This document shows, piece after piece, positions 7,070 to 63,348 of a DNA stretch of 64,000 nucleotides. Both the position numbers and the translations under genes were made by a program. The stretch lies in NCBI RefSeq assembly GCF_003061515.1, contig NZ_CP028924.1, positions 2,666,001 to 2,730,000 of the forward strand. Reading direction: 5' to 3'. Source of the stretch: Colwellia sp. Arc7-D (GTDB lineage: Bacteria > Pseudomonadota > Gammaproteobacteria > Enterobacterales > Alteromonadaceae). Every line of letters starts with the position of its first letter. Within the stretch, counting starts at the first letter, position 1. A model generated the notes under the pieces. That model was not told the origin of the DNA. It was given only the letters and a program-made list of their open reading frames with translations, and ran no database searches.

Positions 7070-7546
7070 TTAATATTTGTATGCTTTTTCCGGGATTTCG
7101 CGAACATAAACACTAAATGTGCTGACATTAATGTTCGGAGCTAACCCTCGTAAAGTTGTTGATTGTTTGCCATGAAGCTCCAAAGGAACCCAAGGTGTTT
7201 TTCCAGCCTCAATAACAAAGCCGGCTTCGTCAAACCAGTTGAAATGATATTGTAATTTTTGTGATTTCTCATAACGACTGGTTAGTGTTAAATTTATTTC
7301 CATTAAGTCATTAATTTTACGAGATTTAACGTCGCTTATAAATAACCGCTTCGCTAAGTCGGTATTATGCACCTCTAAGTGTTTACTAAAGTCATCACCT
7401 TGTGTCATGGCACTAGTACCTGTACCAGCAGTGACAGGAGGTTGTTTATTGGCACAACCAGCTGTAACAATAGTACTAAGCAATATCACCGCTAAACTGC
7501 TGGTGATTTTTTGACCCGTACTCATAGTAATTTTGCTATTAAACAT
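7070..7546 (-). CDS. ycfL: YcfL-family lipoprotein (DUF1425)
   Basis: A 158-residue lipoprotein. The signal peptide ends in the lipobox TVTAGC (Cys about residue 31), followed by a low-complexity linker and the DUF1425/YcfL domain, visible as LTSRYEKSQKLQYHFNWFDE, GKTPWVPLELHGKQ and STFSVYVREI. YcfL is commonly encoded beside lpoB, and its exact job is unknown. A strong AGGAGG site precedes the ATG. It sits 33 bp downstream of the COG3014 gene and 18 bp upstream of lpoB, so co-transcription is very likely. Confidence 0.92.
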   Translation of the reverse strand: MFNSKITMSTGQKITSSLAVILLSTIVTAGCANKQPPVTAGTGTSAMTQGDDFSKHLEVHNTDLAKRLFISDVKSRKINDLMEINLTLTSRYEKSQKLQYHFNWFDEAGFVIEAGKTPWVPLELHGKQSTTLRGLAPNINVSTFSVYVREIPEKAYKY

Positions 7547-7579
7547 ATTACCTCCTGATTCATTATTATTTAACGTAAG

Positions 7580-9001
7580 TTATAAATTAACGGTTTGATA
7601 ACCAAAATGGCTACCAATAGCTGAAATATTGATTAAAGTAATTCTATTAGGTTGAACATCAATTTCAATCGATTTTTGTTGGCCATCTACCTGCATTTGC
7701 AATACTTGTTTACCTGAAGAGGTATCGAAACGAATGATATCAACTTGGTCAGGCAGCGTGCTCCAACTGCGAGTATCGGCCTTTTCAGAAGCAATATTAT
7801 AAATACTCGCTAAAATATTACCCACATTGCCAGCTTCACGGCTAAGTTTTTGGCGAACTTGTTCTTTGGCAACGACTCGCACGACTTGTCGGGTTAATAG
7901 TGACGGTAATTGATCTTTTAAATCTTTCGCCGCCAACGACTGAATTCGCACAATTTCATTCGTTTGATAACTTTGTCCCGCATTCTGTAGCGTAAGCTTA
8001 TTGTGTTGCGATAAAGCTCCTTCATAAACAGGTAAAGAAAAACTAAAGAACTTTAAGCCATAACTGCTGCTACCTACTGGTAAGTTTAAGCCGACATCTT
8101 GCTTACTGTTCACAATATCGCGCTCAACAAGCACTACGATTTTACCTTGTCCTGTTGACTCTTTTGATTGATATTTTCCAAAACGTTGTTGAAAGCTAAT
8201 TAAATCGTCTTGCATACCCAGTTTGCTGGCCAACCTTAAAACATCCTGTTGCAAGTAAGGGTTTTCTGGATAAATTTCTATCGCACGTTTAAAGTCTATA
8301 TATGCATCATTAAATTCACCACTGGCTTCATACAAAATCCCCGATAAATAAAAAGTGAAGGCATTTTGAAAGCCATTTTTTACTTTACCAATAGCCTTGT
8401 CCATATTCGGGTAACCACCTTGCAAACTGTCGGTGCTCATGCCTGAATTTTGCAGCTCATTTTGGGCTTTATAAATTTCGTCTTTATAGACTTTCAAAGC
8501 CGTTTCTTGCACTAAATTTGCGCGACGAATTTCAACTAACGCACCAGATAAATCATCTTGGAATAAGTAATTAAGTGCTTGATAACTGTGTAACATACCT
8601 TGTTCGTAATACGGAACTTGATAAGAGATAGCATTGTCGTTACTCACCACAGCGCCTAGTTTCTCAATACCTTTGCTAATTTGAATTTTAGCTTTATTGC
8701 GTTGTTCCTCAATCTCGATATACGCTTGGGCAAATGTTTGCTGGCTAGCTGACCAGTTATTAGCTAAAAATTCTAACCGCCCTCTTTCTAGCAAACCTAA
8801 TACATAGCTACCATTGCTAGCTGACCGCTCGTTCAATAGACTTTGCGCCATGACAAAGTTTCCTCGACGTTGCGCTGCTTTCACTGATTTCATTTGGCTA
8901 CTATAGCCTTGAAAAATATCAGCGAATTGCAAAGAGCTGCAACCAGGCAAAGCGATAAACATGACGGTTAAAAGAATGTACTTAGCAAGTGATTTGATCA
9001 T
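7580..9001 (-). CDS. COG3014-family TPR lipoprotein
   Basis: A 473-residue lipoprotein with signal peptide and lipobox (IALPGCSS), then tetratricopeptide-like helices (YLSGILYEASGEFNDAYIDFKRAIEIYP is the clearest TPR) and a C-terminal beta-rich domain. This matches the COG3014 proteins found next to ycfL/lpoB in Shewanella, Vibrio and relatives, where they are thought to belong to the LpoB envelope system. I chose the ATG at 9001, which begins a normal signal peptide; a longer frame would add 41 residues of non-signal sequence. It is the first gene of the operon. A degraded copy of its 5' end is found at about 10.37-10.5 kb. Confidence 0.88.
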   Translation of the reverse strand: MIKSLAKYILLTVMFIALPGCSSLQFADIFQGYSSQMKSVKAAQRRGNFVMAQSLLNERSASNGSYVLGLLERGRLEFLANNWSASQQTFAQAYIEIEEQRNKAKIQISKGIEKLGAVVSNDNAISYQVPYYEQGMLHSYQALNYLFQDDLSGALVEIRRANLVQETALKVYKDEIYKAQNELQNSGMSTDSLQGGYPNMDKAIGKVKNGFQNAFTFYLSGILYEASGEFNDAYIDFKRAIEIYPENPYLQQDVLRLASKLGMQDDLISFQQRFGKYQSKESTGQGKIVVLVERDIVNSKQDVGLNLPVGSSSYGLKFFSFSLPVYEGALSQHNKLTLQNAGQSYQTNEIVRIQSLAAKDLKDQLPSLLTRQVVRVVAKEQVRQKLSREAGNVGNILASIYNIASEKADTRSWSTLPDQVDIIRFDTSSGKQVLQMQVDGQQKSIEIDVQPNRITLINISAIGSHFGYQTVNL

Positions 9002-58482: not shown

Positions 58483-58507
58483 CAAAAAAGCACCGGTTAA
58501 GGTGCTT
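58483..58507 (-). terminator. Intrinsic terminator of the nuclease/cohesin unit
   Basis: On the minus strand AAGCACC, loop TTAACC, GGTGCTT, then T run. It lies 27 bp after the stop of the cohesin-like PEP-CTERM gene. Confidence 0.92.
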
Positions 58508-58533: not shown

Positions 58534-59124
58534 CTATTTTTTCTTAAAGCGACGTGATGCTAAGCCCATAATGCCTAATGCGAAGATAGCTAGTGTAGAT
58601 GGTTCTGGGACTGTCGGTGGTGCAGATGCTCGGGTTAAATCAATACTATTGAACGTCACAGGCATTGGACGAAACGTAACTGCACTTACAAAAGGCCCCA
58701 CAGGGAAGAGATTTTCTTGTGTCGATACGCTGGTGCTAGCCCCCATTGTTGAAAGCACTTGAAATGTAATACTTCCCAATACCGCAGAGCCTGTTAAGCC
58801 ATTAAAATCACCAAATGCCCACCCAGAAAGCAGCCCAGGAAAAAGATCAGGTGGACGAAAAAAAAGTGGATCAGCGAAGGGGGGTATGAGTAGGTTTTGA
58901 AAACCCAATGCCAAAGGGTCAAAGACAATATCAAAGCCTCCACCTATTGTCGGCTCAGCTGTAAAGTCTATCAAAATGTCCATAGTGATGAAATCACCAT
59001 CATTAAGGTTTGTCACTATTGTTGTCGGCGACAAGGTAATAAACCCTGCTTGCGCGGCAAACGGACTCATTAAAAGCGCCAATACTAGTACACTCGTTAT
59101 TTTTATTCGTTTTATAAACTTCAT
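58534..59124 (-). CDS. Cohesin-like PEP-CTERM membrane protein
   Basis: A 196-residue exported protein: signal peptide (about 1-26, ending AAQA), a single beta domain (about 30-165) and a PEP-CTERM tag (VPEPSTLAIFALGIMGLASRR). The beta domain resembles the cohesin-type domain seen in other PEP-CTERM proteins: GDFITMDILIDFT, GGGFDIVFDPLALGF, WAFGDFNGLTGSAVLGSITFQVLS. The tag would place it at the cell envelope. It follows the dockerin-bearing nuclease gene by 84 bp with no terminator between, so a tethering pair is likely. AAGGAAG lies before the ATG. Confidence 0.8.
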   Translation of the reverse strand: MKFIKRIKITSVLVLALLMSPFAAQAGFITLSPTTIVTNLNDGDFITMDILIDFTAEPTIGGGFDIVFDPLALGFQNLLIPPFADPLFFRPPDLFPGLLSGWAFGDFNGLTGSAVLGSITFQVLSTMGASTSVSTQENLFPVGPFVSAVTFRPMPVTFNSIDLTRASAPPTVPEPSTLAIFALGIMGLASRRFKKK

Positions 59125-59208
59125 TTCACTTCCTTACTTATTGTTTTTATATATTATTATTCAGCAATATACTGCTTTTCTTTTAAGCCTTTGTTCGACT
59201 AAGTAATG

Positions 59209-62200
59209 CTATGGCACCAATAAACTGGGGCCCGGTGGTTGGAAAAACAGTGATCTCATTATTCCAAGGTCAATAAAATTAACGACACCATCGCTATTCA
59301 AATCAGCATCAGGATCATTAGTAAAAAACACAGCTCGCATCATATTGAAGTCGGTAAAATTAACAATACTGTCATTATTTAAGTCTGGGTCACAAATGTT
59401 ACCGAAACCGTCGCCGTTGGTATCTTCTTGTGCAGGGTTCGGTTTTAGCGTGCAATTATCGAAGTTATCAGGTACACCATCACCGTCGGTATCAGGTTCC
59501 ACTACGATAGGAGCAAAATTAAACCCAATAATGATAGGATCGTGATCTGACATTCGATAAACATCTGGCGCGTAAAAGTTACTTTGCTGTGTTGGTGTTT
59601 GAAATTCAGTATTGTAATCAAGCGCCCGAGGTTCATCGGCATTAATATGCCATTCGGTAACGTCACTAACTTTGTCGGTTAAGCTTGCACTGGCAAGTGC
59701 GTGATCTAAATACCCCGCTTCAGCGCTAAATACAAAGGAATATGCTGTTGAACCAATAAACGCATCAACAAGATTAGTATAGCCATTATTAGTAATATTA
59801 GTTATAGCGTCTTCCATCGCGTAAGCATTTAAATCACCCAGTATTAAGAAATCAGGATCAGAACTCCCTGTTGGATCTGTTGCTAACCAGTTGACCAATG
59901 CCGTCGCTGCATTTGCACGAGTTCCAGCACAGTTGCCCTGCCCATCATTTATATTAACGTCTCCAATGGAGTCACAATTTGAACCCTTAGATTTAAAGTG
60001 ATTAACGGCTAAGGTTAAGTTTTCGCCACTAGGCAGACTAAATGTTTGCGCCAGTGCTGGTCTGTTTTTGGTATCAAGAAACAAGGGATCAACTGAGCTA
60101 TCTAGTATTGCAAACGCGCCACTTGGTGAAGTACTTGCTGGTTTATAAATAAACCCAACTTTTATCGCATCAGTTCCAATAGTACCGGTGTTTAAATAAG
60201 CATAAGTTCCAGCACCGGCAACCGCATTAAGGCCACTGACCAAATCAGCTAATGACGCAGTTGCGTTGTTTTCTAATTCGACCAGCCCTAAGATGTCTGC
60301 ATCAATGGTGTTAATAGCATTAATTATTTTGTCTCGTTGACGGGTAAATTCCAAAGCACTGTCTGCTCCTCTGCAACCTATAGAAGAAGGTCCACAAAGC
60401 GCGCCACCGGTATCTATCGTTGTAAAGTAGTTCAACACGTTTATACTTGCTATTTTGAAGTCTCCTCCTACGTCTTCTGGCATAGGAGTACGAGAATTAT
60501 CTGCACTAAAGTTAACAACTTCTGTCGGTTGAATCCGGTACTTACTAAATCCGTAACTCATTATCCCTGTTAAACTCGTGGTGTAACCACTGCGTAAAGT
60601 ATTGCTCGCACTCAAACCTGGGGCTGGATAAATAACGGGTTCTGGATTTTGAGATGTATTAGCGTCATCCAAAATCAATTGATTTAGCGACAGACTTGCA
60701 AGATGTGACGCATAGCCCGCAACATTAGGTAAACTGTTGTGAGTAAATTGATATGTTCTGCTGTCTGAAAGAGTTATTTCACCAAAACGCGCTAGATTAA
60801 AATTCTCATTTACCGTTAACGGTTGAGATAAAGAAACCAACATTCCTTCAACACTTTCAAGCTCATCGAGTGAAATCACAGGTAAAGTAATGGTAGACGC
60901 ACTCACGGCTCCATTACCGCAAACAGCTAATTGTGAAACATTATTAATCTCTGTTAGGCCAAAGCTTTCGTTCGCTGTACCTTGAACTCGAACAACATCG
61001 CCAACGTTTACCGCATTTGTAATATCAGATACAAAAAGTCCTTCAGAAGTAGTTGCGTCTGCATCAGCTTCAGTATCTTCTTCTTGAACATAAAACCCAC
61101 CTAACGAACCACTACTTTGGTAATTAGCTGTTACTACTGCCTCGATTATAACGCCTGTATTACCATTTAATGGACCAACTGTGCCTGCACCTTGAACATC
61201 ATGGATAAACGTTGCGATGTCATTACATACGCCAAAGTTATTCGTAGGAGGAGTAGTGCCACAGACATTTTCTGAACCAGGAGTAGGAGAGTGTTGCTCG
61301 TAAGTGTCTGAGTTACGCAAACCTCCCGAACCGTTTGCACAACGTTGACTCGAATTTGTATCCTTATTACCCGTCCCATCTTCATTAACTTGTGGTTGGC
61401 CTGGGTTAAGTAAAACCAGTAACCCAGTATCGTCCCTATCATTAGTATCGTAGACGAGAGCATCGAGGAGGTTGGTTGTTGATACGGGCGTATCATTAGG
61501 ATAATTAGCGGCATCTCCCGTGACTAATGCCACAGCATCGGCGCCGTTTTGAATAAGATTCGTTTCGGGTGAAACATCTAAATCACAATTTGGCGTAGTC
61601 GCGGCATTCGCACAAAGTACAAAATAGCCATTCGCATTAGTGTTTAAACCATCTAAATCAAATGCTAAATATGACGCATCATCAGAGCCGTTATATAGCA
61701 CGACAGACAAGCCGGTTAAGTCAGAGAATCCAACACCACCATCATAAAGTTCAATAAATTCAGCACTGTCACTACCCGTTTGGTCAGCATCAACTTCATT
61801 GATCAAAATATCAGTAACCCCGCATGTATTCGAAAACCCCGGTGTCGGTATATGTTGCTCGTAAGTGTCTGAGTTACGCAAACCTCCCGAACCGTTTGCA
61901 CAACGTTGACTCGAATTTGTATCCTTATTACCCGTCCCATCTTCATTAACTTGTGGTTGGCCTGGGTTAAGTAAAACCAGTAACCCAGTATCGTCCCTAT
62001 CATTAGTATCGTAGACGAGAGCATCGAGGAGGTTGGTTGTTGATACGGGCGTATCATTAGGATAATTAGCGGCATCTCCCGTGACTAATGCCACAGCATC
62101 GGCGCCGTTTTGAATAAGATTCGTTTCGGGTGAAACATCTAAATCACAATTGGCTGTATTGGCTGAATTACCACACAAAACAAAATAACCATCAGCGTTT

Positions 62201-62472
62201 GTACTAAAACCATCTAAATCAAATGCTAAATAAGAAGCATCATCAGAGCCATTGTATAGCACGATAGATAAGCCTGATAAGTCAGAAAATCCAACACCAC
62301 CATCATAAAGTTCAATAAATTCGGCGCTATCTGTGCCTGTTTGGTCGGCGTCAACTTCGTTGATTACAATCTCAGCTTTTGCCGGTGCCATTGCTAAAGT
62401 TAATGTAGCTAACACTAAAGCAATGATCTTAGTTTTAATTAGCTGTGGAGATGACAAGCGTATTTTATTCAT
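59209..62472 (-). CDS. exeM: ExeM-type extracellular nuclease with two LTD domains and a dockerin
   Basis: A 1087-residue secreted protein. Order: signal peptide (about 1-33); two lamin-tail domains (about 34-215 and 221-400, INEVDADQTGTDSAEFIELYDGG); an OB-like region (about 415-560); an EEP nuclease domain (about 665-985: ASINVLNYF, LVELENN, HFKSKG, LGDLNAY, LDHALAS, SDHDP); TSP3 calcium repeats (DTDGDGVPDNFDNC); and a type I dockerin (DLNNDSIVNFTDFNMMRAVFF and DLNSDGVVNFIDLGIMRSLFF). ExeM nucleases degrade extracellular DNA. The usual GlyGly-CTERM anchor is absent. Start at 62472, behind AAGGA. Confidence 0.92.
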   Translation of the reverse strand: MNKIRLSSPQLIKTKIIALVLATLTLAMAPAKAEIVINEVDADQTGTDSAEFIELYDGGVGFSDLSGLSIVLYNGSDDASYLAFDLDGFSTNADGYFVLCGNSANTANCDLDVSPETNLIQNGADAVALVTGDAANYPNDTPVSTTNLLDALVYDTNDRDDTGLLVLLNPGQPQVNEDGTGNKDTNSSQRCANGSGGLRNSDTYEQHIPTPGFSNTCGVTDILINEVDADQTGSDSAEFIELYDGGVGFSDLTGLSVVLYNGSDDASYLAFDLDGLNTNANGYFVLCANAATTPNCDLDVSPETNLIQNGADAVALVTGDAANYPNDTPVSTTNLLDALVYDTNDRDDTGLLVLLNPGQPQVNEDGTGNKDTNSSQRCANGSGGLRNSDTYEQHSPTPGSENVCGTTPPTNNFGVCNDIATFIHDVQGAGTVGPLNGNTGVIIEAVVTANYQSSGSLGGFYVQEEDTEADADATTSEGLFVSDITNAVNVGDVVRVQGTANESFGLTEINNVSQLAVCGNGAVSASTITLPVISLDELESVEGMLVSLSQPLTVNENFNLARFGEITLSDSRTYQFTHNSLPNVAGYASHLASLSLNQLILDDANTSQNPEPVIYPAPGLSASNTLRSGYTTSLTGIMSYGFSKYRIQPTEVVNFSADNSRTPMPEDVGGDFKIASINVLNYFTTIDTGGALCGPSSIGCRGADSALEFTRQRDKIINAINTIDADILGLVELENNATASLADLVSGLNAVAGAGTYAYLNTGTIGTDAIKVGFIYKPASTSPSGAFAILDSSVDPLFLDTKNRPALAQTFSLPSGENLTLAVNHFKSKGSNCDSIGDVNINDGQGNCAGTRANAATALVNWLATDPTGSSDPDFLILGDLNAYAMEDAITNITNNGYTNLVDAFIGSTAYSFVFSAEAGYLDHALASASLTDKVSDVTEWHINADEPRALDYNTEFQTPTQQSNFYAPDVYRMSDHDPIIIGFNFAPIVVEPDTDGDGVPDNFDNCTLKPNPAQEDTNGDGFGNICDPDLNNDSIVNFTDFNMMRAVFFTNDPDADLNSDGVVNFIDLGIMRSLFFQPPGPSLLVP
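59236..59400 (-). other. Dockerin type I region of the nuclease
   Basis: Two consecutive calcium-binding F-hand repeats, D-x-N-x-D-x-x-V-N-x-x-D, separated by about 24 residues, at the very C-terminus. This is the classic dockerin layout. Confidence 0.85.
61292..61590 (-). repeat. Identical 299-bp tract, copy in second LTD domain
   Basis: Appears identical base for base to 61853-62151 (offset 561 bp, 187 codons), while flanking parts of the two LTD domains differ clearly. Confidence 0.9.
61853..62151 (-). repeat. Identical 299-bp tract, copy in first LTD domain
   Basis: Partner of 61292-61590. The abrupt edges (next bases differ at once on both sides) suggest recent gene conversion within the gene. 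Confidence 0.9.
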
Positions 62473-63348
62473 GTGCATTCCTTTAGTTATATTCTCATAT
62501 TTCTAAATTTTTCATGCACACCTATATTAGGTTTTACTACTTAAATAACGTGAATGATAAATGTTAAATGTGTATTTAAAAGTACTGATTTTCTATTTAT
62601 TATTAAATTTTACTCTTTTAAATGAATTTGAAGTTTCGATGACATAATAATTTAATTCTGCAAAATAATATTCGTAATGTGGCTCTGTGTTAATTTTGAC
62701 TAAATAACATATAGGAGAAGATTACCAATTAATCAATTTTTAGCAGGGTATATTTAAATAAAGAAGAATTTCTTTCTAAATTTAAATTATTGTTCAATAA
62801 CGGAGAATAAAGCGCTTATTAAATCTTTATGTCAGAAATTGGCCTCCTGCCGGAAGTTCGGTCGAAATACTCCCTCCTACCCCTCAAACGATTGTCAGGC
62901 TGACCGTCTCTTGCGAAAACTGAGATCAGCCATGACCGAGGCCAAAATCCCCCGCTACTTTGACTTAGGTTGAGGTAGTGGGGGGCGGTTTCAGTTATTT
63001 TTCCCCCATGAAAATCTGTGAAACTAAGATTCTAAAATGGACGTTTGGCACTTTGGCTTCAAAGTGCGCATTGTTGACGTTAGCTGTTGGCTATTCTTTA
63101 GGTTAACTGATAGCCATAAGCTGACAGATACGGCTTAGTTTGAAAAGATAACTACTGCCACAAAACCGACTTAATTATTAAAGTAATCAACTCTATTTTT
63201 ATGTCAGCTATCTTCAGGGGGAGTTGACATAATAGGTGATTTTTCTATGGCGCTTTCGCCCCATTGCGACTTATAAACCACAAATTGAAGATTTTATTTC
63301 AAAATTAAAGACCTGCCCCGTTACACCATATATGAAAAATGTACAAAT
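62473..63348. other. Intergenic region with a GC-rich insert
   Basis: No gene seen. 62473-62830 is very AT-rich and should hold the nuclease promoter. 62840-62990 is notably GC-rich and contains a strong hairpin (CCCCCGCTAC at 62949-62958 with GTAGTGGGGG at 62975-62984). About 63136-63171 repeats a segment near 53.3 kb. The GC-rich part resembles a mobile-element end, but no transposase is present. Confidence 0.5.

Follow-up and report, generated by a model that had tools for sequence, protein, structure and literature searches.

A dockerin-ended ExeM nuclease and a putative single-cohesin PEP-CTERM anchor encoded side by side in Colwellia sp. Arc7-D and related bacteria

Introduction

Cellulosomes are built on multi-cohesin scaffoldins and are attached through SLH domains or sortases. 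Here we analyse a stretch of 64,000 nucleotides of Colwellia sp. Arc7-D (contig NZ_CP028924.1, positions 2,666,001 to 2,730,000; hereafter, the window), in which the gene of an ExeM/NucH-family nuclease ending in a dockerin is followed by that of a PEP-CTERM protein with a single predicted cohesin domain; a preliminary description of the sequence had proposed the two as a cohesin-dockerin pair. Compared with the type I modules of cellulosomes (cohesin, PF00963; dockerin, PF00404), this pair has one cohesin per anchor, a DNase as cargo, and a PEP-CTERM tail on the anchor.

The "Planctosome" of freshwater Planctomycetes (PMC6461901) is a complex of cohesins and dockerins, likewise outside cellulosomes and likewise accompanied by LTD and TSP3 domains, that was put forward on genomic grounds; as far as the available text of that article goes, it differs in having peptidases as cargo and both anchor and adaptor proteins, and PEP-CTERM and exosortase appear nowhere in its main text. 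Two articles on anaerobic methanotrophic (ANME) archaea (PMC9012536, PMC5244752) likewise describe, in their available parts, numerous extracellular dockerins and cohesins that are not tied to cellulose degradation, and leave their function open; these archaeal dockerins are carried by transporter binding proteins and S-layer proteins, and no nuclease gene pair is described in those parts. One of these articles (PMC5244752, same parts) describes as unknown what dockerin and cohesin proteins do when no cellulosome is involved. The ExeM of Shewanella oneidensis (PMC6085458) belongs to the same nuclease family and co-fractionated with the cytoplasmic membrane, being absent from supernatants; it differs in its GlyGly-CTERM tail and rhombosortase site, and the accessible sections of the article mention no dockerin. 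Our literature search, which left most subscription papers and preprints uncovered, returned no report joining a dockerin, a cohesin and PEP-CTERM, or describing this gene pair.

In this work, we document the domain content of both proteins, the predicted cohesin fold of the partner, the adjacency of the genes, the recurrence of the pair, and the correlated divergence of dockerins and cohesins; the predicted fold and the pairing are well supported. We propose, with a probability of roughly three in four, that this operon-like pair serves to hold a secreted DNase at the cell envelope by docking. The exported nuclease would carry a C-terminal dockerin rather than a membrane anchor, the small exported protein encoded after it would consist of a single cohesin domain and a PEP-CTERM tail, and the dockerin would plug into the cohesin, in a calcium-dependent manner if the analogy with cellulosomes holds. 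DNA would then be cut near the cell, possibly for nutrient uptake or matrix turnover. The arrangement is a variant of the cohesin-dockerin principle, new in that a one-cohesin anchor is encoded beside its cargo, with putative binding and anchoring.

Results and discussion

Recurrence of the gene pair and correlated divergence

A search with the ExeM profile NF033681 of 118 genomes of the window's family (probably Alteromonadaceae; L005, a locus with this label, has its gene again in family genome G376, L273) gave 108 matches in 88 genomes, of which the 107 besides the window's were inspected as 30 loci and 77 tails. Automated scanning identified two or more F-hands among the 90 C-terminal residues in 52 of the 107 proteins. 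A partner, defined as a co-directional following gene no more than 400 bp away that encodes 140-260 residues with a signal-like start and a sorting-like end, adjoined 36 of these 52 genes versus 1 of the 55 others (Fisher p 9.7e-15, a value that overstates independence because the surveyed genomes are related). Inspection by eye showed a dockerin end in the single exception (L186) and, at L207, a partner that the regular expression had missed; after these corrections, a cohesin partner stands next to 38 of 53 dockerin-ended ExeM genes versus 0 of 54 others. The pairs are distributed over 38 of the 118 genomes and 21 genera, the window's genome being counted through its second pair (see below), and nuclease and partner are 10-116 bp apart in 35 of the 38, the negative spacing of the other three resulting from start-codon choice. 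Conservation of the pair and the cohesin fold were two of the three points on which the preliminary description would have had its proposal refuted, the third being a predicted interface, and these two are supported.

None of the 53 dockerin-ended nucleases has a hydrophobic/basic C-terminal anchor of its own by regular expression, versus 5 of the 54 others. The earlier statement that the relatives of the window's nuclease end in GlyGly-CTERM holds only in part, given these five and the 53 of 107 that end in a dockerin; as the usual ExeM tail of this family, GlyGly-CTERM is rejected on the same counts. Five partnerless dockerin-ended ExeM genes (L178, L194, L199, L226 and L247) share a similar opposite-strand neighbour (586-614 residues, MPQY.AP..D), which we regard as marking a conserved alternative location.

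Pairwise distances were compared in 38 of 39 pairs, L195 being dropped as it had no motif for cutting the catalytic piece. Dockerin distances correlated with those of the adjoining cohesins at 0.61 and with those of a catalytic piece of about 95 residues from the same polypeptide at 0.29; the partial correlation between dockerin and cohesin was 0.56 (p 0.0005, 2000 permutations). Within the Cys-tailed subtype alone, the partial correlation was 0.53 (31 pairs), or 0.48 without dockerins more than 80% alike (28 pairs), while the plain correlations were closer to each other, at 0.67 for the cohesin versus 0.52 for the catalytic piece.

The PEP-CTERM partner and its predicted cohesin fold

The tail of the window's partner protein has a PEP motif, a hydrophobic stretch and a basic end, and it matches PF07589 (31.4 bits; cut-off 20.7) and TIGR02595 (24.8 bits; cut-off 16). 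The predicted structure of the protein shows a single domain with the cohesin fold, i.e., a jelly-roll beta sandwich. The Pfam Cohesin profile PF00963 matched neither this protein nor any other in its genome; at E<=1, it matched 11 of 121 homologues of the protein and 24 of 36 proteins adjoining dockerin-ended ExeM. The predicted fold and these relatives support the cohesin call of the preliminary description. The control for the Cohesin matches, 108 other PEP-CTERM proteins, is not clean, as P0013 and P0024 are cohesin-like by eye without a listed Cohesin match. In the relative L007, which comes from a metagenome contig, the cohesin gene is followed by the sequence of a sorting tail in another frame (7506-7905), which could reflect misassembly or a genuine interruption.

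The nuclease and its dockerin tail

The nuclease matches NF033681 with 601.9 bits (curated cut-off 300). Its matches to Exo_endo_phos and to LTD, the latter in two stretches, exceed the respective Pfam cut-offs, and that to TSP_3 is slightly under (24.3 versus 25 bits). Its terminal pair of F-hand calcium-loop/helix repeats is the feature by which type I dockerins are recognized; the type I pattern reported earlier is thus real as a motif, but it stays below the Pfam threshold. Dockerin_1 (PF00404) matched the isolated 73-residue tail with E 2.5e-4 and 21.6 bits (cut-off 22.9), in an alignment spanning both repeats, and the full-length protein with only E 0.16; the GC-type dockerin profile NF041540 matched weakly (19.4 bits; cut-off 29). 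Among sequences of solved structures, the TSP3 repeats of thrombospondin were the best match to the tail, and the F-hands matched the CelS dockerin with E 3.6e-4. The single fused model of the window's pair gave a good cohesin and a fair dockerin (block means 70-88, residues 11-60), with helices at 25-35 and 52-62 that fit the F-hand repeats; the relative placement of the two domains was undefined (predicted template modelling score 0.58), and the model speaks neither for nor against an interface.

The sub-threshold dockerin score, the lack of an interface in the fused model, and the fact that TSP3 repeats also bind calcium would all fit a tail that is a calcium-stabilised C-terminal module or a secretion or processing signal, next to an independent beta-sandwich surface protein. 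We consider this very unlikely, as it leaves unexplained both the cohesin fold of the neighbour and the restriction of partners to dockerin-ended nucleases (38/53 versus 0/54).

A second nuclease-partner pair in the genome

The Dockerin_1 search of the whole genome identified two credible dockerins and one match at chance level. Both credible dockerins are the ends of ExeM nucleases, i.e., that of the window and that of L004 (1640-5665), which exceeds the Pfam cut-off with 27.5 bits. At 44 bp past this second nuclease, L004 5710-6300 encodes a signal peptide, a beta domain and a PEP-CTERM tail. With a partner profile that includes the second-pair protein as a member, and the window's protein as a non-member, just two matches in the genome cover the domain (E 2e-52 and 2e-19, respectively); ten more are limited to the tail part. 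The two pairs are distinct subtypes, each adjoining its own partner. No cellulosome, with a multi-cohesin scaffoldin and polysaccharide-degrading cargo, is apparent from these data: the anchor has a single cohesin, the genome lacks a PF00963 match, and both credible dockerins are on ExeM, divergent scaffoldins not having been otherwise sought.

With two dockerins and two cohesin-like proteins in one genome, cross-docking is possible, and the adjoining genes could be co-regulated members of a wider docking network of loose specificity, in which a dockerin binds another cohesin or a cohesin another dockerin. Such a network would also accommodate the 15 of 53 dockerin-ended ExeM genes without an adjoining cohesin: when the partner profile was run on 30 chosen genomes, near-full matches were found in 10 of the 15 with partnerless dockerin-ended ExeM versus 2 of the 15 in which no dockerin-ended ExeM had been seen. 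The separation into two subtypes, each beside its own partner, and the correlated divergence of neighbours make this explanation improbable in comparison with docking between adjoining products.

Exosortase and anchoring

Certain observations fit poorly with the proposed docking. The partner was previously called exosortase-processed, which finds no support in Colwellia sp. Arc7-D: searches with PF09721, TIGR04178 and protein sequences identified no exosortase in this genome, which has 10 PEP-CTERM matches, while the same protein search identified one in 3/3 congeners. PF09721 matches were found in 92 of the 118 family genomes and in 37 of the 38 pair genomes (below the cut-off in G467), the window's being the exception; therefore, exosortase processing is likely in the relatives and unexplained in the window's strain, in which the tail may just remain in place as a membrane helix. 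Additionally, according to the accessible sections of PMC6085458, the S. oneidensis ExeM is kept with the membrane even after tail deletion, and tethering may therefore not rest on the dockerin alone.

It is also conceivable, if unlikely, that the pair is decaying or recently acquired in the window's strain, with a cohesin protein poorly anchored without exosortase and a nuclease that is simply released. The three exosortase searches are in line with this, as are the congeners: G457 has no ExeM match, the only one of G422 (L176) lacks a dockerin, and the only one of G374 (L160) is paired like the second pair. Against it, neither pair has an interrupted reading frame, and the genome still carries its 10 PEP-CTERM matches.

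Organization of the locus

The features of the window are listed in Table 1. Both genes lie where the preliminary description had placed them, and no terminator-like site was found by pattern search on the minus strand of the 84-bp spacer, again as described; the same search gave 5 sites versus 3.0 expected in shuffles, one of them directly after the cohesin gene. The two genes form an operon-like pair. The nuclease open reading frame runs to 62478, and the ATG at 62472 was the start taken earlier. The nuclease gene contains a 300-nt direct repeat (61277-61576 and 61838-62137, 98% identity), and its two LTD domains look like the product of a recent duplication or conversion.

Table 1. Features of the nuclease-cohesin locus (window positions)
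Feature	Position	Strand	Description
ExeM/NucH-family nuclease	59209..62478	-	1089 aa; signal-peptide-like start, two LTD, nuclease region, TSP3 repeats, C-terminal dockerin
C-terminal type-I-like dockerin	59212..59385	-	two F-hands, DLNNDSIVNFTD and DLNSDGVVNFID, and PGPS tail
Spacer between nuclease and PEP-CTERM genes	59125..59208	-	84 bp
Single-cohesin PEP-CTERM protein	58534..59124	-	196 aa; signal-peptide-like start, predicted cohesin fold at about residues 26-168, PEP-CTERM tail
PEP-CTERM tail, VPEPSTLAIFALGIMGLASRRFKKK	58534..58614	-	PF07589 and TIGR02595 matches
Terminator-like stem-loop directly 3′ of the cohesin gene	58488..58507	-	pattern match only

Cohesin-dockerin neighbours beyond ExeM

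The 30 chosen genomes gave 17 matches spanning most of the partner profile, 16 of them with loci; 10 of the 16 adjoin a dockerin-ended gene, in no case at an NF033681 match. Among three relatives of the window's cohesin in a named collection, L006 and L007 adjoin DUF11 repeat proteins with a TSP3-dockerin end and L005 does not. No dockerin gene was found near the cohesin-like genes of L005 (10 kb flanks) and L010-L013 (1.5 kb flanks; L010 is near a contig end).

A class-wide survey gave dockerin matches in 58 of 369 genomes (112 rows; 98 regions besides the window's own genome), leaving out 8 matches without a dockerin frame in the non-overlapping set of open reading frames. By regular expression, a PEP-tail neighbour adjoined 10/44 terminal, 2/36 internal and 0/18 intermediate dockerins versus 7/146 non-adjacent genes; L050, L064, L087, L120 and L142, seen by eye, had been missed. 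At L058, one of the two internal cases, the neighbour is cohesin-like by eye, and the sorting-tailed neighbours at L046 (two) and L068 (one) are not clearly so. Many terminal dockerins of the class have other neighbours, so the pairing rule, strong within the family, loses strength at this wider level.

We lean towards a general plug-and-socket surface display in Gammaproteobacteria, in which small cohesins with PEP-CTERM-type tails would each be encoded beside the dockerin-ended protein that they hold, the cargo including ExeM DNases in the window's family and, in other groups, secreted proteins rich in repeats, with an exchangeable non-covalent anchor replacing built-in membrane anchors. If so, this would partially answer what non-cellulosomal cohesins and dockerins do; PEP-CTERM-type tails could act as sockets for other enzymes, and small docking pairs could be added for surface display in Gram-negative hosts. 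With just two genes, a clear cargo and an anchor, the minimal arrangement found in 38 of 118 family genomes makes this function directly testable.

At L061, L066, L067, L068, L111, L122 and L124, the dockerin-ended protein is followed by an exported protein of about 300 residues, often lipoprotein-like and in several cases showing a stretch similar to 'A.AGDT', which might represent a further type of docking with a lipid anchor. Tandem cohesin-like genes follow one dockerin-ended gene at L120 (2310-3368), with a sorting tail on the second only, and at L063, two or more dockerin-ended genes in a row come after a single cohesin-like PEP-type gene.
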